Source: Crocosphaera sp. (lineage in GTDB: Bacteria > Cyanobacteriota > Cyanobacteriia > Cyanobacteriales > Microcystaceae). From it: 49,300 nucleotides of DNA. The stretch is from positions 1 to 49,300 of the forward strand of contig NZ_JASJEB010000116.1 in assembly GCF_030064895.1 (NCBI RefSeq), written 5' to 3'. The notes under the pieces were generated by a model that was not told the DNA's origin, made no database searches, and was given only the letters and a program-made list of their open reading frames with translations. Both the position numbers and the translations under genes were made by a program. Positions within the stretch are counted from its first letter, which is position 1. Each line of letters begins with the position of its first letter. Of the stretch, positions 21,134 through 32,588 are shown in pieces.

Positions 21134-24100
21134 ATGACAAATTCTGGATCTAACTTACGGGAAGATGGAAACGATTTAGTTAAACTAAATTACAGTGATT
21201 TTCTGGGTAAAGTTCTTGAAGTTTTAAATAGTGATACATCTCAACAACTATTTAAGATATCTGAAGATAATAAACGTCTATTAATGAATGTTGATGAACT
21301 TGCTTATCAAGTTTCTCAGTTATCTATTAATGATCCTTTTATTAGTCAACCTTTCGGAACAAAATGTGCATCAATTAATTTTATTGAAGGGACAGAAAAA
21401 ACATTTAGTGAACAATTACATTTAATCCAAGCAAAAGTCAAAGAATTATTAAAAAATGAGTTAAAACAAGATATATCTATTGAAAACTATTTAGAAAAAA
21501 TTGCAGTACCTTTAGAAAATTTAAAAGGTAAAGTCAATGATAATATTAGTTTTAATTATCCTTTTGATCAAAAATATACCAATCTACAAAAACAACGGTT
21601 AACCTTACCTAAAGATGAACAAAATATCCTACCATTACTCAGATTACATAAACTTAGTATAACTGTTAAGCAACCCACTAGATTTTTGAATGAATTAAGA
21701 AGTAGTTTAAAAAATTATGTTGAAATACATTTTGAAGAGGAAAAAGAGGATTTAATTGAGGATATTCTAGAACCCTTATTTGAAAATCAAGATAAAGATA
21801 ATAATGATATTTACAAGCTAAAAAAATTAATGAAAGAAGAATCATTAGGAAAGATAAAAAAAGCGGCAAGTATTAAATATCTAGAATTTTTATATGATCA
21901 AGTGAAAAATGATCAAGATGCAGTTTATCTAAAAGATTTAATTAGAAGATTGAAACTCCTAGAAGCTTATATTAATGATGAATCTAAACCAGATGATTAT
22001 TACAAAGTTTTCTATCAAGGGGTTGAATTTGATTTTCGACAGTTTTTCAATAATTCCTATGCTTTTGATTCATTACCTATTATTTCACAAATTGAGGGAT
22101 ATTTAGGAGAAATGAATGATAGGGATCAAGATAAGCAAGAATTTATCTTTGGAATGAAACTAAAATTAAATGGACAAGTCCAAACTTCCAAAGGAGAAAC
22201 TTCTTTTGAATATCATACTAAGTTTCTCGATTTAGATAAAAAAGAGAATAAAGATAAACTAAGCAATGAAATCGAAAAAGGAAAATTCATCAGAAAAGTT
22301 TTAAGAATTGTATTTTTATATTACTTTGTTTTTGCTTCTCGCAGTAAACCTTTAGATAAAAACAAAAAATATGACCGATCTTATGATATATCTTCAGAAT
22401 TAACTTACGATCCAGTAGAAAATTTTGAGCAGCAAATTTTACCTATTTTGAAAGGAAATGATGATCAAGCTAAGAAAAAGCTATTTAACGATATCAAAAG
22501 AGGTTTTGAACAATATAACATATCTTTTAAATTACAAAAATTAAGAGAATTGCTTATAGACTATATTGAGAGTAAAAAAATATTTAATACTAAACCATAT
22601 ACTCTAACAATTAATATCAGTCAGGGTATTTTAGAAAAAGATTCAGATAAAGTTGATAACAATAATACATTATTTAAACCTGAATTAAATAATAAAGAAG
22701 GTTTAAAGTATATTTCAGTTAATGATAGTAGTAAAATTGATACTGAAACATTATGTGGTCTATCAGTTGATATTAAGTTTACTGATATTCAGTACTTTCG
22801 GAGTAATGAACAACAGTTGTTTAGCATGAAGTATGATCTAGATGGAATTAATACAATACCTATGCTTTTAACTCCCCAAGAAGATCAATGTCGTGAAATT
22901 TATAAACAAGGATTAAAAAATCAAGCATCTTTAGTTTGTAATTATAATCATGAACGTCTCAAAGAAGAAATTTTTAATCAGGAAGATAATCCTAATATGT
23001 TTTGGTATCAGTTAACTTTTTCTTTGTTAACTTACTTGAGTTTAAAAATTTTATTATATCAATCAAAGGACAAATTATTTATTCCTTTATTACGTCTTCA
23101 TTTAACTGATAAAGATGATGCTTCACCAGAAGAAGTCTTTATGCGTTCCTTTTCCTATGTATTATCTCATATTTTAAATGAAAAATATGATTTTAGCTCT
23201 CAAGGAATTTGTATTAAAAACATTAATTTTTTCAAAAATCGTAATTCATTAAGTTCCCTTTATTCTACCATCCCTAAGATATTTCAGTTTGATAATTATA
23301 CTCCTGAGTTAGATAAACTTGCTATTATTGTTGTGTCTAGTTGGGAATGCGATCGCAAATACACCAATACCTATCAAATAAAGAACATGATAGGGGAAGT
23401 TATATGTTTAGAGCGTCAAGAAGATAAAACAATTAGGTTATATAATCAAGGAACATTCTCCAGTAATTATGATACTGAAGATATCTACAAAAAACCTGAT
23501 ATTTTGGTTAATAAAATAAGTGAACTTTATGATCAAGGATATCGTCATTTCTTGTATATTGCTAAATCTCCATACTCTAACTACCTAAATATTACAGGGG
23601 AAAATAGAGAACTGTATTTTATGTCACCGGATGTTATTAAAGAATTAAAATCAGGTAAAAATGATATACATATTTATCCTATTTTCTTCGACAAGTATTA
23701 TGTCGTTAAACTACAAAAAATTAATGCAGCTTCTCTGTATATTCAAGATACTACTGAACTAACAAACTTAGTCAATGATAAAGCAGATGCAAGTCAAAGA
23801 TCATTAGTATTTTTCAATTTGTTTAATGGTATTACTGTGGTAAATGATAACTCATATAATGGGGTTATATCTTATATAACCTTATTGAATATTTATAATG
23901 ATACTGAACACGAAAAAACGATTTATCAGGGACTAATTAATGATACTCAATTTAAAAAAGATATATTGAATTATCTTACTTTATTTCATTTTTCTCGTTA
24001 TCAAGCAACAGCTACAAGAAATAAACCAATTAGTTTAAAGTTAGATCCTTATCAAAATTTAATAGGAGACAAATCAGTGGGTCAATTATCAGTTTTCAAT

Positions 24101-24184
24101 CATATTAAAGGGAATAGAAAGATTGAGTTTAATTCTCTTGCTTTTCTCACGGAAGTAAGAAAATATTTGTACGATAAACCATAG
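21134..24184 (+). CDS. Large protein of unknown family, helicase partner
   Basis: 1016 aa, no family firmly recognised. There is no signal peptide, and a single hydrophobic patch (RIVFLYYFVFAS, 391-402) is too short for a sure membrane helix. The N-terminal 700 residues are Lys/Glu/Asn-rich and mostly helical. Residues 620-700 have a compact hydrophobic block (MFWYQLTFSLLTYLSLKILL, LFIPLLRLH). From about 727 the pattern changes to alternating strands and helices: LAIIVVSSWECD, EVICLERQEDKTIRLYNQG, an ILVNKISELYDQGYRHFLYI helix-strand unit, IHIYPIFF, RSLVFFNLFNGITVV. This order is reminiscent of an RNase H/PIWI-like fold, but conserved catalytic acids are not evident. The ribosome site is weak. 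Its stop is 17 bases before the helicase gene, with which it forms an operon. Confidence 0.6.
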   Translation: MTNSGSNLREDGNDLVKLNYSDFLGKVLEVLNSDTSQQLFKISEDNKRLLMNVDELAYQVSQLSINDPFISQPFGTKCASINFIEGTEKTFSEQLHLIQAKVKELLKNELKQDISIENYLEKIAVPLENLKGKVNDNISFNYPFDQKYTNLQKQRLTLPKDEQNILPLLRLHKLSITVKQPTRFLNELRSSLKNYVEIHFEEEKEDLIEDILEPLFENQDKDNNDIYKLKKLMKEESLGKIKKAASIKYLEFLYDQVKNDQDAVYLKDLIRRLKLLEAYINDESKPDDYYKVFYQGVEFDFRQFFNNSYAFDSLPIISQIEGYLGEMNDRDQDKQEFIFGMKLKLNGQVQTSKGETSFEYHTKFLDLDKKENKDKLSNEIEKGKFIRKVLRIVFLYYFVFASRSKPLDKNKKYDRSYDISSELTYDPVENFEQQILPILKGNDDQAKKKLFNDIKRGFEQYNISFKLQKLRELLIDYIESKKIFNTKPYTLTINISQGILEKDSDKVDNNNTLFKPELNNKEGLKYISVNDSSKIDTETLCGLSVDIKFTDIQYFRSNEQQLFSMKYDLDGINTIPMLLTPQEDQCREIYKQGLKNQASLVCNYNHERLKEEIFNQEDNPNMFWYQLTFSLLTYLSLKILLYQSKDKLFIPLLRLHLTDKDDASPEEVFMRSFSYVLSHILNEKYDFSSQGICIKNINFFKNRNSLSSLYSTIPKIFQFDNYTPELDKLAIIVVSSWECDRKYTNTYQIKNMIGEVICLERQEDKTIRLYNQGTFSSNYDTEDIYKKPDILVNKISELYDQGYRHFLYIAKSPYSNYLNITGENRELYFMSPDVIKELKSGKNDIHIYPIFFDKYYVVKLQKINAASLYIQDTTELTNLVNDKADASQRSLVFFNLFNGITVVNDNSYNGVISYITLLNIYNDTEHEKTIYQGLINDTQFKKDILNYLTLFHFSRYQATATRNKPISLKLDPYQNLIGDKSVGQLSVFNHIKGNRKIEFNSLAFLTEVRKYLYDKP

Positions 24185-24201
24185 AAGGAGGAAAAAGAAT
24201 A

Positions 24202-27200
24202 ATGTCAAATATCGGTAAAGATATTGAACTTGGAGAAAAGTTAGGATTTTTGTTTGAAGTTGGGTTTAATATTGGACTCCTTACCTACATCAAACAAAAT
24301 AATATTAAGCATCATTATGACGACTTATATTCTCAAGATTTAAGAGAATTAAAGTTTACTAGGATTATTGATAGATTAGCAATAGATGAAAGAGTTGTTA
24401 GTGACTCAAATCGTAAAATTATTAAAGATTGGGTTTTGTTTTTTCTGCAAAAAGCTTTTTTATCAGGACTGAACTTTTTACAAGAATATTTTGCAGCAGT
24501 TGAGATTAAACCCAAGCATTACAAAAAGCTAGATATTCTTTATTATCAATGTTATTTTCATGGGAATAATAGTTTAGGAACTTATACAAAAAAAACAGAT
24601 AGAGACGCATACAAGTCAAGTCTTCAACAGTTAGAGAATATTGATGATTTTGATCAATATATTGCTCAAAATAAGGGAAAAGGAGAATTTCTAAAAGCTG
24701 ATAGTTTAATGTTTGTTCAGTATAAAGATAGAAAGTATATTATATCAATTGATTATTCTATTTTTGCTATTCGAGAAATTCAAGATTTAGATAATCTTCA
24801 TAGTGTTGAAGTCTTAAAAAGAATATTGCTTAAAGAAATTGCTTATTTAAGAAAAAAGAGTGTTTTTGCTACTTTGGGACTGGATAGTAAAACACCTAAA
24901 ATTAATTTATCTGAGAGTTTAGCGAGTCATTATAAAGCATTTGTTACCAAGGATAAAGAAAGCATGAAAATGATCCAAGCAGGAAGTTATGCTTATAGTT
25001 TTTATTGTTTTCTTCAATCACAAAATTTACTGGAAGATCAAGAATCTGTCAATATAAATATTTTTGGATATAGCGATCGCGGAATTAGTTCTCTAACTTT
25101 AACTAATACAGAAGAACATATCAAAATACTTAAAACTTGTCACCATATTTATAAACATAAAGATAACAAACAAAAAGAACTATCAACAGCGCGTGAAGAT
25201 ATATTAGATGTAATTAAACGTAAAGCAGCAAAAAGTTTTATTAATGGAAAAAGTTTCTTTAATGAACTAATGGAAACAAAAAATAATAATAAACAAATAC
25301 ATTCGTTAACTCATACAGAAACAATTGATAATTTTTTGAGTCCCATTGATACTATTCCTATAGAAATCTCTGACAACTTAAATTTAGACCCGAAACTAGA
25401 CTTAAGAAATGCACATAAAGAACTGATTCAAAGAGAATTAGAATCTGATAAACATTATTTATTTTTAACAGGAAATCCTGGAATTGGTAAAACTACTGCT
25501 ATCACAGAGTTTCTGAAACAACCAAAAATTTTAAATGAGGGATTTTTATTTTTTTATATTAGTCCACGAATACAAGTTAATCTGGATATTATAGAGAAGT
25601 TTACTGATAAAAATACAGGTGAACTTTATGATGATAGAATTTTTGCTATTACAAGTAATGCTACTCTTATTCGATCTAATAATCGTAATATAACGGTTAA
25701 TTATCGTTCAAATATTTATCAGGATAAACGTTTTAAGCATCACAATGTCCATTTTATTCATCAAAATGAGGAACTAGAATATAATCCATCCAATATTGAT
25801 GAAGTTATTCGTCAAAATGAAGATACTTTAAGAGATCAGAATATCAATAGTAGTGGAGTTTTACAGAGTATTTGTGAAGCAAGCGATACTCTAATTAAAA
25901 GTGAAATATCTAATAATATTGTTGCTACTGTTTCTATGCAATCATATAAAAAAACGAACCGAGGTAATACATTTAAGAAGCATTTTCCAAAAATATTTAA
26001 TAGTGCTTATAGTTCTATAAAAGAAAAATTTTTAGAAGACAATATGAGAGAGATATCTAGTCGAATTAAACATATTTTTGTCATGGTTGATGAGATTACA
26101 GGGGATGAAAATGGGGTTAACCTTCTTCATGAAATTAGTAAATTTTTTAAACATTTTCAAGAAGAATATGGATTTAATTATAAAATTATTGTTGCTGATG
26201 CTTCTATTGTTAATCCTGATGTGATTAATCAGCATTTTTCTTCTACTGTTCCTGAACCTAATAAAATATTTTTTAGACAAAGCTTTGCTAATAATTCACC
26301 TTTATCAATTGAAAATTTTAGATTTAAAAATAAACCAGCAACGATTATTAATAGTAATGCTTATCCTGCAAGAAATTTAAAGATAACTTATAAATTATTT
26401 ATCGAATCTATCGAATTTCATGAAGAATTATATTTACAAAAAAATCAAAACCTAAAAGACGCAGTACAAAAGCAACTTATTAAAGACATTAAATATACCC
26501 TCAAAAATCATCCTTCTGAACAAATTATTGTTTATATTCAAAATAAGGAAAAACTAGCAGAATTAATTACACAAATTAAAGCATCTCGAAAATTTGAAGA
26601 GAAACAAGACTATTTAGAGATTCATGCAAACTTAGGAGATAAGGATAAAAAAGAGGTTAAAAAATACCTTGATCAAGAAACAATAAAAGTCATCTTTATG
26701 ACATCTTCTGCAAGTCGAGGTTTATCTTTTCCAAATGTTAAACATATTTTAGTAGAAATTCCTAGATTTGAAGTAGAAAGAAATTTAATGGAAGTGATAC
26801 AAGTTATTTATCGAGGGAGAGGAAACGATGAGATTGATAAACAAGAAAAACAGTTAATATTTTATCTTAGTGAACAAGCAATATATGATCAAGAAGAAGA
26901 TGAAGAAAAACGTCAATTAGCGATACAAGAAAGTATTTTATCGTTTATCAATCTCCTGTTAATCTTGAAAACTTCAATTATGACAAGGATTCAAGGTTCT
27001 GGTATAATCGGAAACGATGAATTTTTAATGATTCCTGTCAGTGGAAAATCTGTTTCTGCTGCTGGTGAAACTTTTAGCAGTAAACTCAATAATTTAATTG
27101 GACAACTTAAAAGAGAAGCGAGAAAATCTTGCGATACGGAACGACTGATAGAAGTTTCTACTTGTTTAGAAAAGCTTTTACAAGAGTGTGAAATTACTCT

Positions 27201-27888
27201 CAAAAAAATGTTTAAAGATCCAGAAAAAGCAGGTATATCACCTCTTGACTTACGCACAGAATTATGCAATGAATTCTTAAAATTAATGGATAATAGTTTT
27301 GAGGAATTATTAAATTATTATCCCATTGAATACTGTCACATCAATGGTAGTTTATTGTTTGTTCCTATTAAAAATAAAGGAATTGAAGAAAGATATAAAA
27401 TAAGAACTGATCAGAATTCAAACACCTTAAACTATGAAAAAATTATCAATAATTTACAGTATATTAATAAACATCCAAAATTACCAGAAACCATCACCAG
27501 AACAGTTCCAGATATAATTAAATTTGTCGATATTATTTTTGAAAAAGATAATAGTGTTCAAAACTACGAACAAAATAGTCAGTATGATGATCAATATTAT
27601 GCTATTCCATTATATGCTTTTATTATTCCTGAACTCCTTGAAGAGTATTTTCAGTGTGATGATGATCAAACCGAACAATATAGCTTTAAAGATATTTTAA
27701 AATTATATCTTCGTTCTCTTTATCCTGTTTCCAGTCTTTTACCTATTGGAAATAAATACGAACATTTCCCTTTTATTATTTTCCGTAGCTACAGTTTAAA
27801 CGAACTGAGAAGTAAACTTTTTACAGATAAATATTTATTAAACTCCCATGAAATTAATGTTTTAAGTTTAATTTTGGCTAGAAAGTAG
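24202..27888 (+). CDS. SF2-type helicase/ATPase with novel N-terminal region
   Basis: 1228 aa. Two RecA-like domains are inferred from the motifs: Walker A LTGNPGIGKTT (422-432), motif Ia-like FYISPRIQVN (451-460), motif II FVMVDEITG (626-634), motif III-like IIVADAS (662-668), motif IV IIVYIQNKEKL (775-785), motif V VIFMTSSASRGLSFP (830-844), and motif VI VIQVIYRGRG (865-874), a variant of Q-x-x-G-R-x-x-R. The first 400 residues and last 300 match no domain I can name. Residues 160-190 contain ADSLMFV...YIISIDYS, resembling a PD-(D/E)xK core with a changed second motif. Strong AAGGAGGA (24185-24192) 9 nt before the ATG. The gene is AT-rich but has a GCGATCGC octamer (25075), so cyanobacterial residence is likely. 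Its dependence on the 1016-aa protein is inferred from operon layout. Confidence 0.7.
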   Translation: MSNIGKDIELGEKLGFLFEVGFNIGLLTYIKQNNIKHHYDDLYSQDLRELKFTRIIDRLAIDERVVSDSNRKIIKDWVLFFLQKAFLSGLNFLQEYFAAVEIKPKHYKKLDILYYQCYFHGNNSLGTYTKKTDRDAYKSSLQQLENIDDFDQYIAQNKGKGEFLKADSLMFVQYKDRKYIISIDYSIFAIREIQDLDNLHSVEVLKRILLKEIAYLRKKSVFATLGLDSKTPKINLSESLASHYKAFVTKDKESMKMIQAGSYAYSFYCFLQSQNLLEDQESVNINIFGYSDRGISSLTLTNTEEHIKILKTCHHIYKHKDNKQKELSTAREDILDVIKRKAAKSFINGKSFFNELMETKNNNKQIHSLTHTETIDNFLSPIDTIPIEISDNLNLDPKLDLRNAHKELIQRELESDKHYLFLTGNPGIGKTTAITEFLKQPKILNEGFLFFYISPRIQVNLDIIEKFTDKNTGELYDDRIFAITSNATLIRSNNRNITVNYRSNIYQDKRFKHHNVHFIHQNEELEYNPSNIDEVIRQNEDTLRDQNINSSGVLQSICEASDTLIKSEISNNIVATVSMQSYKKTNRGNTFKKHFPKIFNSAYSSIKEKFLEDNMREISSRIKHIFVMVDEITGDENGVNLLHEISKFFKHFQEEYGFNYKIIVADASIVNPDVINQHFSSTVPEPNKIFFRQSFANNSPLSIENFRFKNKPATIINSNAYPARNLKITYKLFIESIEFHEELYLQKNQNLKDAVQKQLIKDIKYTLKNHPSEQIIVYIQNKEKLAELITQIKASRKFEEKQDYLEIHANLGDKDKKEVKKYLDQETIKVIFMTSSASRGLSFPNVKHILVEIPRFEVERNLMEVIQVIYRGRGNDEIDKQEKQLIFYLSEQAIYDQEEDEEKRQLAIQESILSFINLLLILKTSIMTRIQGSGIIGNDEFLMIPVSGKSVSAAGETFSSKLNNLIGQLKREARKSCDTERLIEVSTCLEKLLQECEITLKKMFKDPEKAGISPLDLRTELCNEFLKLMDNSFEELLNYYPIEYCHINGSLLFVPIKNKGIEERYKIRTDQNSNTLNYEKIINNLQYINKHPKLPETITRTVPDIIKFVDIIFEKDNSVQNYEQNSQYDDQYYAIPLYAFIIPELLEEYFQCDDDQTEQYSFKDILKLYLRSLYPVSSLLPIGNKYEHFPFIIFRSYSLNELRSKLFTDKYLLNSHEINVLSLILARK

Positions 27889-28041: not shown

Positions 28042-28293
28042 ATGCTCCAAGTTTCTGCATCAGAACTGCCTAAAGATATTGATAAAATTATGGATACTGC
28101 ACAAAAAGAAGCTGTTATTGTGCGTAAAAATTCTCTTGATTATGTAGCGATTATTTCAATGGAAGATTATGAGGAATTAATTCGTTTGAAGAATAAACGT
28201 CTTAAAAATTTGGCAGATGAAATAGGTTATGAAGCAAGAGAAAAAGGATTAACACCAGAAATGTTAGAGGATATTCTTAATAGTGACGATTAA
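28042..28293 (+). CDS. Phd/YefM-type antitoxin
   Basis: 83 aa with the Phd/YefM architecture: LQVSASELPKDIDKIMDTAQKEAVIVRKNSLDYVAIISMEDYEELIRLK, a DNA-binding N-terminal fold, then a flexible toxin-neutralising tail (GLTPEMLEDILNSDD). It should bind its own promoter and neutralise the PIN toxin encoded next. The toxin gene begins at a GTG inside the antitoxin's 3' end (11-base overlap), the usual coupled order. The toxin is truncated here, so the antitoxin is probably a relic acting, if at all, on related toxins elsewhere. Confidence 0.85.
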   Translation: MLQVSASELPKDIDKIMDTAQKEAVIVRKNSLDYVAIISMEDYEELIRLKNKRLKNLADEIGYEAREKGLTPEMLEDILNSDD

Positions 28294-28507
28294 ACGTTAT
28301 GTCATTGATACTAATGTGTTGATTAGTGCTATTCTTTTGCCTGAGTCAACTGCTTATAATGCTTATATTAAGGCTCTTGATACTGGGATATTACTCGCTT
28401 CATCCTCAACTTTAGCAGAGTATAGTGAGGTAATTCTCCGCTCAAAATTTGATCGTTATTCAAGTCAAGAACGTCGCCAAATTTTTCTTATAAAGGCAAT
28501 TTATTAA
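28283..28507 (+). pseudogene. 3'-truncated PIN-domain toxin
   Basis: 74 aa. It starts with the PIN signature YVIDTNVLISAILLPEST, whose first Asp is an active-site acid, followed by ASSSTLAEYSEVILRSKFDRY with the second conserved Glu. PIN toxins of this type are about 130-140 residues; here the frame ends just after QERRQIFLIKAIY, before the third and fourth catalytic acids. The tail enters DNA belonging to a mazF gene on the opposite strand (28488-28507), so a deletion removed the toxin's 3' half. An active RNase is not expected. Confidence 0.8.
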
Positions 28508-29597: not shown

Positions 29598-32588
29598 TCA
29601 TGACTCCTCTTCCTTCAACTCAGGATTTTTCAACTCTGCATACACTGTTAAAACCTTAGACAAAGACTCTACCCGACAGTCATGACTAGGACATTGTTTG
29701 GTGCTATGGAGTGCATCTCCCCATCGTTGTAGCTTGGCTTGTGCTTCGGCAATGTCTGTTAATGCTTTGGCTTTGGAGTCGGAAGAATCTATCTGTTGCG
29801 CAACAGTAAGAGCTTGTTGTAAGAGGGTAACTGCTTCTTTGCTGTCTGATAGTTTACTGGAAGCTTGGGCGATCCCTCTTAATGCTCTGGCTTTGTTGTC
29901 GGAATCATCTATCTGTTGCGCAACAGTCAGAGCTTGTTTTAAGAGGGTAACTGCTTCTGTGCTGTCTGATAGTTCACTGGAGGCTTCGGCGATCTCTGTT
30001 AATGCTTTGGCTTTGGAGTCGGAAGAATCTATCTGTTGCGCAAGAGTCAGAGCTTGTTTTAAGAGGGTAACTGCTTCTGTGCTGTCTGATAGTTTACTGG
30101 AGGCTTCGGCGATCCCTCCTAATGCCCAGGCTTTGTAGTCGGAATCATCTATCTGTTGCGCAAGAGTCAGAGCTTGTTTTAAGAGGGTAACTGCTTCTGT
30201 GCTGTCTGATAGTTCACTGGAGGCTTCGGCGATCCCTCCTAATGCCCAGGCTTTGGAGTCGGAATCATCTATCTGTTGCGCAAGAGTCAGAGCTTGTTTT
30301 AAGAGGGTAACTGCTTCTGTGCTGTCTGATAGTTCACTGGAGGCTTCGGCGATCCCTCTTAATGCTCTGGCTTTGTTGTCGGAATCATCTATCTGTTGCG
30401 CAACAGTCAGAGCTTGTTTTAAGAGGGTAACTGCTTCTGTGCTGTCTGATAGTTCACTGGAGGCTTCGGCAATCTCTGTTAATGCCCAGGCTTTGGAGTC
30501 GGAATCATATATCTGTTGCGCAAGAGTCAGAGCTTGTTTTAAGAGGGTAACTGCTTCTGTGCTGTCTGATAGTTTAATGTAAGCTTCGGCGATCGCTCTT
30601 AATGCTCTGGCTTTGGAGTGGGAAGAATCTATCTGTTGCGCAAGAGTCAGAGCTTGTTTTAAGAGGGTAACTGCTTCTGTGCTGTCTGATAGTTCACTGG
30701 AGGCTTCGGCGATCTCTGTTAATGCCCAGGCTTTGGAGTCGGAATCATCTATCTCGTCTAATAGTGCCTTCATCTGCTTTATTTCTCCATTTTTAGCGAA
30801 AGCAATGGCTGCTTTTGACTGATAATTATCATCTCGTACTTTTTCACTCCAATAAGCCAAATCTTGCCGAATCTGCCATAGTTGTCCGGGGGTGGTATAG
30901 TGCAACAATCCCCACCCTGTCATCAATAACAGTAAGATTGTCCCCAAAATACCCAAGTTTCGATACAGTCGTCGTTTACTTTGTTGCAAAAATTTTTGTT
31001 TTTGTCGTTCTTTATTTCCCCAGATTAAATACCGTTTATGGGATTCAATCAACCATAATTCTCTTATTCCCAATAAATACCGAGAACTATAATTATTTTC
31101 CATCCACACTCTCACCTTTTTATTGAGTAAATCATTGGCTTTATAAGCTTTCGGTAAAATCTTCCCTGACAGTTTCATCACCGCAGGAATCATCTTCTCA
31201 TGTGCTAATTCGTAGGCGGTTTTTTCTTCTTGTTGAATAGGAGTAATTAATCGCTCTAAAGCCAACCATTTAATGGCTTCACTGATTTCTTGAGGTGGTA
31301 TTATTTTTAACTTTTCTTGTAACTCTTTGATAGTCAAAGCACCCGATCTAGTCAACTCATTCCCATCTACAAATTCTAATAAAACCTTCATTAATTTTTC
31401 TGTTTGGGATGTGGGTGTTGATTTTTCTCGCAATTTTAATTGCTCTTCTAAATATTGATATAATAATCCTTCTACCTCTCCTATTTTTTGCATTGCAGTC
31501 TTTTTAAAGGCTCTTTTTTCTGATATCTTCTGACTACTAATAACTAAGGATAGTATTTGTAAGTCAACAGGTGAAATTAGAGTATCTTTTCCCATAAAGT
31601 TTGTTTCAAAAAGATATTTTATATAGTCCCGTTCAAAGTCTATATTTTCTATCTTCGCAATCGTTTCTAGAATATTGGTTGCTTCTTCAGCAGAAAACTT
31701 TTTTAACTCAAAACTATTAGAAGAATAAAGGGGATAATCTAGCTTATGTTGAATATCCGATTGAAAATAAAATAAATCTGAGCGTAAACACATCAAAATT
31801 TTGACATCAATTTGATCTTGCTCATACCACTGTTTTAAACTGTCAAGAAATTGTTCATAAACATCAGGAAATTTATAACGATGGACAAAAACTTGCTCAA
31901 ACTGATCAAAGAAAAGTATCAAAGGTTTCCCAACTGTTTTAATTCCTTGTTCACAAACTCCTAAAAAATCTAAATTTTCAGCCTCTTGAATATTTAACTT
32001 TAAATCCCTAATAATTTCTTTTTTAACCTTTTCTAGAGGATTTTTATCACTAAATTTAATATATATACCTCGATACTGACTTTCTTCTGTGGTCAATTTT
32101 GACATTAAACCCGCTTGAATAAAAGAACTTTTTCCACACCCAGACTCTCCCCATAAAATACCAATGCGAAACTCTCTATCTTGCAACATAGATAAACAAG
32201 CATTAATACTTTTATTTCGTTCCAACTTACTAAAAACTTCAGCATCCTTTTGTGTAAAGGGACGTAACCCTTTAATAGCAACTTGTTCTTCAACTGGACC
32301 ATCTGAGATCAGTTTCGGTTTATTAAAAACTGCAATCAATACCGCAACACAAAATAATAGTATTAATCCCAAACATCCCCAGATAAACCATTGAGGATAT
32401 TCTTGTATCCCGAAAATACTTTTAATAGGTTCCCGTGAAACCCAACCAACAATAATAACCGCTAAAATTAAGCAGATTAACTCAACCCATTTCTTTTCCC
32501 GTATCAACTCTGCTACCATCTGTACCAACGAGACAAGACTTTTCATTGTCTCGGTAATACTCTCCAAAATACCCTTAAAATTCTCCAT
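29598..32588 (-). CDS. Membrane-anchored STAND NTPase with TPR-like repeats
   Basis: 996 aa. Two N-terminal membrane helices (about 35-51, 67-87) precede an nSTAND1-like NTPase: RPFTQKDAEVFSKLERN, Walker A GESGCGKSSF (147-156), Walker B LILFFDQFEQ (223-232) and a helical region to about 470. A third membrane helix lies near 545-565. Residues about 606-948 are eight 40-residue TPR-like units with the core LSDSTEAVTLLKQALT.AQQI, nearly identical at DNA level. STAND proteins are signal-gated oligomerising switches, used in bacterial signalling and anti-phage defence. The effector here is not recognisable; the membrane helices may serve. The start ATG lacks a good ribosome site. The gene ends just before a GTGTGGGGG tandem repeat. 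Confidence 0.8.
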   Translation of the reverse strand: MENFKGILESITETMKSLVSLVQMVAELIREKKWVELICLILAVIIVGWVSREPIKSIFGIQEYPQWFIWGCLGLILLFCVAVLIAVFNKPKLISDGPVEEQVAIKGLRPFTQKDAEVFSKLERNKSINACLSMLQDREFRIGILWGESGCGKSSFIQAGLMSKLTTEESQYRGIYIKFSDKNPLEKVKKEIIRDLKLNIQEAENLDFLGVCEQGIKTVGKPLILFFDQFEQVFVHRYKFPDVYEQFLDSLKQWYEQDQIDVKILMCLRSDLFYFQSDIQHKLDYPLYSSNSFELKKFSAEEATNILETIAKIENIDFERDYIKYLFETNFMGKDTLISPVDLQILSLVISSQKISEKRAFKKTAMQKIGEVEGLLYQYLEEQLKLREKSTPTSQTEKLMKVLLEFVDGNELTRSGALTIKELQEKLKIIPPQEISEAIKWLALERLITPIQQEEKTAYELAHEKMIPAVMKLSGKILPKAYKANDLLNKKVRVWMENNYSSRYLLGIRELWLIESHKRYLIWGNKERQKQKFLQQSKRRLYRNLGILGTILLLLMTGWGLLHYTTPGQLWQIRQDLAYWSEKVRDDNYQSKAAIAFAKNGEIKQMKALLDEIDDSDSKAWALTEIAEASSELSDSTEAVTLLKQALTLAQQIDSSHSKARALRAIAEAYIKLSDSTEAVTLLKQALTLAQQIYDSDSKAWALTEIAEASSELSDSTEAVTLLKQALTVAQQIDDSDNKARALRGIAEASSELSDSTEAVTLLKQALTLAQQIDDSDSKAWALGGIAEASSELSDSTEAVTLLKQALTLAQQIDDSDYKAWALGGIAEASSKLSDSTEAVTLLKQALTLAQQIDSSDSKAKALTEIAEASSELSDSTEAVTLLKQALTVAQQIDDSDNKARALRGIAQASSKLSDSKEAVTLLQQALTVAQQIDSSDSKAKALTDIAEAQAKLQRWGDALHSTKQCPSHDCRVESLSKVLTVYAELKNPELKEEES
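29745..30765 (-). repeat. Eight 120-bp in-frame tandem repeats
   Basis: Period of exactly 120 bp, so units line up at 29821, 29941, 30061 and on to 30661. Units differ at a few positions only (for example IDDSDNKARALRG, IDSSDSKAKALTE, IDDSDSKAWALGG). The same variants recur in non-adjacent units, which points to recent duplication or conversion. The repeats lie inside the STAND gene. Confidence 0.9.

Follow-up and report, generated by a model that had tools for sequence, protein, structure and literature searches.

Two adjacent genes, here called A and B, in a 49,300-nucleotide stretch of a Crocosphaera sp. contig (NZ_JASJEB010000116.1; hereafter the window) form a co-evolving pair that is conserved across genera and phyla, beyond what chance would produce. 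B carries the core of a superfamily 2 (SF2) helicase, and both proteins hold residues that do not vary among their homologues. We regard the chances as about even that the pair acts against invading DNA as a guided Argonaute-like sensor joined to a nuclease-helicase. In such a two-protein nucleic-acid interference system, A would be a catalytically dead and very divergent Argonaute/PIWI-like sensor, holding a guide strand through a MID-like QG pocket and a PIWI-like domain of RNase H fold. Having found complementary foreign DNA, it would recruit B, which would unwind the DNA by its SF2 motor and cut it by an N-terminal domain of the PD-(D/E)XK type, the net effect being the loss of invading DNA, plasmids first. 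An earlier note, made from the sequence alone, had suggested an anti-plasmid or anti-phage module or a nucleic-acid processing complex; the anatomy proposed here agrees with that suggestion, but the function is still one that we infer.

A conserved and co-evolving gene pair

The coordinates given in the earlier note for both open reading frames, the 17 bp between them in the window and the strong site ahead of the second gene were all reproduced. Co-occurrence was assessed in 244 cyanobacterial genomes, where the window proteins as queries matched 33 genomes for A and 42 for B, six of the latter being 18-bit matches to generic RNA helicases; profiles of a second subfamily (II) matched 38 genomes for B and 13 for A. 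After remnants and weak matches were excluded (B in G030, G051 and G101; A in G143, G051, G101, G030, G070 and G063), B was found intact or nearly so in 35 genomes and A in the same 35, so that the conserved two-gene system supposed in the note stands on the point of co-occurrence. This tally was compiled by hand from four match tables; three of its genomes (G093, G155 and G207) were pieced across contig ends, B of G207 being frameshifted near its end, and two others (G127 and G199) have a damaged subfamily I copy, with A whole and B truncated in G199, and were counted through subfamily II. A Fisher value computed for the co-occurrence takes no account of relatedness among the genomes and should not be taken as a probability.

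Gene order is A before B in all 40 linked loci, and the two genes overlap or lie at most 129 bp apart in 36 of them, the other four gaps being 397, 471, 1991 and 7469 bp. One genome (G131) has a whole A and a whole B on different contigs (L095 and L096), each among unrelated genes, and this retention of both despite lost linkage was counted in favour of a joint two-protein system. In G187 (L099 3772-18080), the 7.5 kb between A and B encode a restriction enzyme of type IIG (PADLOC E 9.5e-291), along with small genes judged by eye to be toxin-antitoxin-like.

The evolutionary distances of A and B are correlated with r = 0.991 over 40 pairs and, within subfamily I alone, with r = 0.962 over 28 pairs, a value reached in none of 2000 permutations. 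Ratios of nonsynonymous to synonymous substitution (dN/dS) of 0.21-0.22 for A (two comparisons) and 0.22-0.24 for B (three comparisons) indicate that both genes evolve under purifying selection.

Profile comparison related the two cyanobacterial subfamilies (I and II) to versions found on proteobacterial plasmids. Between B groups every alignment reached E 9e-45 or better, the Acetobacter B being a short frame. For A, subfamily I aligns with subfamily II at E 8e-20 over 927 columns, and subfamily II with the proteins of Cupriavidus, Acinetobacter and Acetobacter at E 1e-134, 5e-34 and 7e-36, respectively; compared directly, subfamily I gives weak values against Acinetobacter (E 0.006) and Acetobacter (E 0.03), and the negative control of A against B profiles ranged from E 0.04 to 0.6 over 25 comparisons.

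Among 72,556 plasmid records, window B matched 11 and window A six; all six are cyanobacterial, are typed as conjugative and carry the pair. The Cupriavidus A query recovered itself, two Acinetobacter plasmids and one Acetobacter plasmid, with B present on all of them. A Stanieria plasmid holds a fragment of B alone, adjoining a transposase gene. Viral contigs gave one partial match to subfamily II A and no confirmed relatives of subfamily II B, of either subfamily I protein or of Acinetobacter B, and phages gave no match to Cupriavidus B, the sole query used there. The partial match (L115 3-881, from a viral collection) covers residues 150-394 at 32% identity, past which the frame departs from the homology to A, possibly through misassembly.

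The AT-richness described in the note was borne out, with GC contents of 26.3% for A and 27.2% for B, where the window as a whole has 35.2% and the 5-kb flanks on each side 37.6%. The pairs of the relatives are likewise AT-rich, exceeding their 6-kb flanks in 36 of 39 loci by a mean over the 39 of 5.1 points (49 loci were listed and ten broken, cut or unlinked ones omitted), and therefore low GC alone is not a sign of recent arrival.

Helicase core and N-terminal domain of B

Pfam, PADLOC and NCBIfam were scanned with A and B of the window, of subfamily II, of Cupriavidus and of Acinetobacter, and with A of Acetobacter and of Nostoc. Window B matched Pfam Helicase_C at E 1e-9, accompanied by sub-cut-off matches that are mostly to P-loop families; Helicase_C exceeded its cut-off in window B and in two of three distant B proteins, with Acinetobacter B just at the cut-off (23.5 bits). 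Against PDB sequences the best match of B was the motor of the RNA helicase MSS116 (E 6e-4), followed by weak helicase, P-loop and chance matches. For A, the family scans gave chance-level matches (best E 0.065) and the PDB sequences nothing better than E 0.33. Neither A nor B is assigned by any Pfam, NCBIfam or PADLOC model, save for the generic helicase domain of B.

The helicase motifs reported in the note lie where it had put them: GNPGIGKTT at 424-432 (Walker A), DEITGD at 630-635 (DE-box), motif V at about 833-844 and the unusual motif VI, VIQVIYRGRG, at 865-874, to which ADAS at 665 can be added. Their key residues are kept in at least 40 of 42 homologues, so the unusual motif VI is a trait of the family. 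With Walker A, DExx, motifs V and VI and two RecA-like parts, the helicase core of B is certain and of SF2 type.

The N-terminal part of B is also marked by conservation, since E19, D167, S186, K252, K256, Q259 and Y263 are kept in all 42 homologues and position 184 is always acidic (D in 30, E in 12). The residues follow the order GxxFE, ADxL, a predicted hairpin ending in (D/E)xS, taken from a model with a predicted local distance difference test (pLDDT) of 35, and QxxxY. This pattern, E...D...(D/E)xS...K...QxxxY, runs in the order of PD-(D/E)XK and RecB-type nucleases. On this motif pattern, a nuclease of PD-(D/E)XK type has in our estimate slightly better than an even chance, and the invariance of the acids favours an active site over a remnant. 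Two results tell against it. The lysine of (D/E)xK is replaced by serine in all 42 homologues, a loss for which K252 or K256 might substitute; and the AlphaFold model of residues 1-404 (mean pLDDT 34.9) was uninformative, lending the nuclease no fold support, as was Foldseek with that model (60 matches, best E 0.99, top printed probability 0.16).

Predicted RNase H-like domain and proposed pocket of A

A was modelled by AlphaFold2 from an alignment of seven sequences. Residues 728-853 were built as strand-strand-strand-helix-strand-helix-strand, which is the order of RNase H, with block means of pLDDT from 31 to 80 across 721-850. Foldseek of the model against the PDB returned 578 matches at E up to 10 (matched ranges were not printed and root-mean-square deviations were large), and among the 50 listed, 49 are RNase H-like and one is a pantothenate kinase. 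The 49 include RNase H, reverse transcriptases, many endonuclease V entries, an integrase and five Argonaute/PIWI chains, namely the SPARTA prokaryotic Argonautes (pAgo) 8u72, 8j7s and 8isy and the PIWI structures 9ij2 and 7yfx. Searching a viral library likewise brought up numerous RNase H-type proteins, among other matches. Poor model quality as such is disfavoured as the cause, because the equally poor model of the B N-terminus gave nothing better than E 0.99. In subfamily II, strands and helices followed a comparable order in a crude propensity profile from alignments, in which the third strand was not seen. It is very likely, on model evidence, that the C-terminus of A has an RNase H fold, and moderately probable that this domain is PIWI proper. 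The propensity profile also predicts two further strands past the RNase H core in A; according to PMC3702460, the PIWI/endonuclease V clade typically has a beta-sheet extension.

The proposed pocket precedes this domain, with Q690 kept in 42 of 43 sequences and G691 in all 43. In PMC11096173, the MID motif of ApsB is given as Y[X]3K[X]nQG[X]nK, with K413 required for plasmid loss; the Tyr-x3-Lys part of this motif is not conserved in A. Strand 1 of A (728-737) has acids in the Acetobacter row only (733 and 735) among the 43 sequences, and 806-814 in none. The residues D597, D669 and H807 of human Ago2, which we take to be catalytic, lie 52, 72 and 138 residues beyond Q545; from Q690 of A, the corresponding distances to S735, K811 and D971 are 45, 76 and 160. 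Of these Ago2 residues, Q545 is included in the 5' pocket and the other three are among the guide-contact residues listed (PMC4504477). The usual catalytic acids thus appear to be missing from the RNase H-like domain of A. Directly after strand 1, E738 is acidic in 28 of 43 sequences and D740 is kept in 40; since D740 could be catalytic, and A active, under a shifted register, we describe A as "catalytically dead" only provisionally.

That last point belongs to a group of results that weigh against the sensor proposed here. The model of A has a mean pLDDT of 35.8 and a predicted template modelling score of 0.28, one of its 578 Foldseek matches falls under E 0.001, and RNase HI and reverse-transcriptase entries outrank the Argonautes. 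Full-length profile comparison of A with pAgo and with pPIWI-RE gave no signal, in a setting where the control of pPIWI-RE against pAgo itself reached only E 0.14. Six comparisons of C-terminal A profiles with pAgo or pPIWI-RE were then set against 40 column-shuffled controls each, and five were negative, with 20, 12, 4, 3 and 19 of the 40 shuffles as high. The sixth, subfamily I against pPIWI-RE, gave E 0.13 with no shuffle as high; this match was discounted, as it pairs the later half of A with the start of the other domain. One alignment of this kind, when inspected, was not colinear. The control of pAgo against pPIWI-RE did slightly better than A (E 0.07, one of 40 shuffles as high). On these sequence comparisons, the profile method has little power here and gives no support for PIWI.

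The same results bear on the alternative that A is an RNase H-fold protein outside the Argonautes, for example endonuclease V-like or integrase-like, which would work with the helicase free of a guide and recognise invading DNA by its structure. A Foldseek list headed by RNase HI and by the RNase H of reverse transcriptases, and containing many endonuclease V entries, agrees with it, as does the lack of PIWI signal in profiles. We nevertheless consider it distinctly unlikely, given the length of about 1000 amino acids (aa) with a C-terminal RNase H-like domain, the two strands predicted past the core and a QG placed before that domain at Argonaute-like spacing. The note had recognised no family for A or for the first 400 residues of B; no model matches them, but a fold can be proposed for A and a motif pattern for B.

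Known systems, rival functions and genomic setting

The pair probably works like DdmDE and ApsAB, by analogy of its parts. In DdmDE, ddmD precedes ddmE, whereas in the present pair the Argonaute-like gene comes first. According to PMC12409362, DdmDE joins, as is proposed for the pair, an inactive Argonaute-like protein to an SF2 helicase-nuclease in a two-gene operon, but DdmD has its helicase first and its nuclease at the C-terminus, whereas in B the nuclease-like pattern (19-263) precedes the helicase motifs (424-874). ApsAB, as described in PMC11096173, combines an Argonaute-like protein bearing a QG MID motif with a helicase/nuclease, which resembles the anatomy proposed here; the motifs given there for ApsA are GFGKS 218, DELH 532, SAT 823, QAVGRVER 1140 and a C-terminal D...DVK nuclease at 1420-1435. 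B has instead GKT 429-431, DEIT 630, ADAS 665 and QVIYRGRG 867 at a different spacing, and so lacks the ApsA motif set; nuclease position and gene order are reversed. The pair was filed under neither system, because domains and genes both run in the opposite order and the helicase motifs differ from those of ApsA in sequence and spacing, a separation made from published descriptions.

It could be argued that the pair is a true member of the DdmDE or ApsAB family whose divergence puts it beyond the models used. The proposed division of labour is the same, the QG lies in the proposed MID region as in ApsB, and ApsAB-like systems are reported in some cyanobacteria (PMC11096173). We hold this to be very unlikely in view of the differing ApsA motifs and C-terminal nuclease, the reversed gene order and the absence of matches among PADLOC models, NCBIfam models and PDB chains so named; for DdmD and DdmE, the presence of the proteins in these libraries is itself unconfirmed. 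No curated system model names A or B, in line with the note's proposal of an undescribed system, and searches of open-licence PMC papers, where absence is weak evidence, showed no description of such a pair.

SPARTA-type short pAgo systems have a separate effector. The pair would resemble them in combining a proposed inactive MID-PIWI sensor with such an effector, but the SPARTA chains in the Foldseek list measure 452-507 aa, against about 1000 for A, and the partner of A is a helicase. The pPIWI-RE systems, according to PMC3702460, include a helicase beside a divergent prokaryotic PIWI that may be active or inactive, but they consist of three genes (REase, DinG and PIWI) with a helicase of DinG type, whereas the pair has two genes with the PIWI-like one first. 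Membership of A in pPIWI-RE was ruled out on gene number, gene order, helicase type and the Pfam pPIWI-RE domains, which matched none of five A proteins at E up to 1. A pPIWI-RE gene occurs in five of 146 cyanobacterial genomes, among them the genome of the window, at a separate place (L120, G000:C47:13934-14794; Pfam PF13032, E 6.5e-19).

More tentatively, and with somewhat less than an even chance, the pair may stand for an unnamed and broad class of Argonaute-based immunity, in which a dead PIWI-like protein of about 1000 aa, showing no detectable relation in sequence to pAgo or pPIWI-RE, and a nuclease-first helicase with motifs unlike those of ApsA were invented independently and are in part vertically inherited in cyanobacterial chromosomes. 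If the proposal of a sensor joined to a nuclease-helicase is right, it would add a lineage, with its parts reversed, to the few Argonaute-like systems that pass their target to a helicase-nuclease, suggest that the principle of guide-sensor and nuclease-motor arose or was rebuilt more than once, and offer a candidate reason why some cyanobacterial strains lose or refuse plasmids. The pair would be a transferable two-gene unit, with Q690 of A and E19, D167, D184 and K430 of B as targets for mutants.

The genomic setting can be read in two ways. Some copies lie near DISARM drmD, in one contig (L114) an HmaC/DUF499 protein adjoins the pair, and at another locus (L041) there is an Hhe/PDC-S37-type gene nearby. 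Such neighbours (restriction, DISARM, HmaC or Hhe-type), together with the presence on plasmids, were counted for interference. Against this, many copies sit among housekeeping genes, so the defence-island setting assumed in the note is not general. Two subfamily II copies adjoin glyS and polA, and a shared gene, by eye purQ, directly precedes A in seven f5 genomes, which have further neighbours in common, on which grounds the pair is probably vertically inherited in these genomes. These housekeeping neighbours and the strong purifying selection would suit a chromosomal maintenance complex for R-loops, replication forks or repair intermediates, in which B would be a motor-nuclease, A a guide-free RNase H-fold subunit, and defence not the role. 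We consider this unlikely, if a serious contender, because the distribution is patchy (35 of 244 genomes), copies are broken or reduced to remnants in G030, G051, G127, G143 and G199, and several are plasmid-borne.

No constant third gene was found among the neighbours, those common between loci occurring mainly in related genomes. A scan covered 144 of the 194 listed neighbour frames, and its raw counts, taken without background control, support no claim of enrichment: no PADLOC model (E 1e-10) matched more than four frames, and Uma2, with nine, was the Pfam family seen most often. HipA and Fic genes, and HNH endonucleases with a WYL protein, occur at other loci. The L114 contig (G093:C97, 32,413 bp) is probably a circular plasmid, because B is cut off at one end of it and the C-terminus of B is found at the other.

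Table 1. Features of the gene pair in the window
Feature	Position	Strand	Evidence
Gene A, proposed Argonaute-like protein, 1016 aa	21134..24184	+	Open reading frame; full-length homologues; dN/dS
A Q690-G691, proposed MID-type guide pocket	23201..23206	+	Column conservation; QG in ApsB motif
A residues 725-1012, predicted PIWI-like domain of RNase H fold, usual catalytic acids apparently absent	23306..24169	+	AlphaFold2, Foldseek, column counts; profile tests negative
AAGGAGGA, ribosome-binding site of B	24185..24192	+	Sequence; ahead of ATG 24202
Gene B, SF2 helicase with N-terminal domain, 1228 aa	24202..27888	+	Open reading frame; Helicase_C; homologues; dN/dS
B residues 1-404, putative nuclease domain of PD-(D/E)XK type	24202..25413	+	Conserved residues; fold prediction uninformative
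B residues 413-890, helicase core with motifs I, II, III (ADAS), V and VI	25438..26871	+	Pfam; conserved motif residues

Downstream of the pair in the window, the Pfam scan placed a Phd/YefM antitoxin and an nSTAND1-TPR protein, in keeping with the toxin-antitoxin and STAND genes mentioned in the note. At 28042-28504, the antitoxin is followed by a frame, PIN-type by eye, that ends after about 70 residues and is apparently a decayed toxin; the nSTAND1 protein (29598-32588) carries near-identical TPR units in a row in its C-terminal half.

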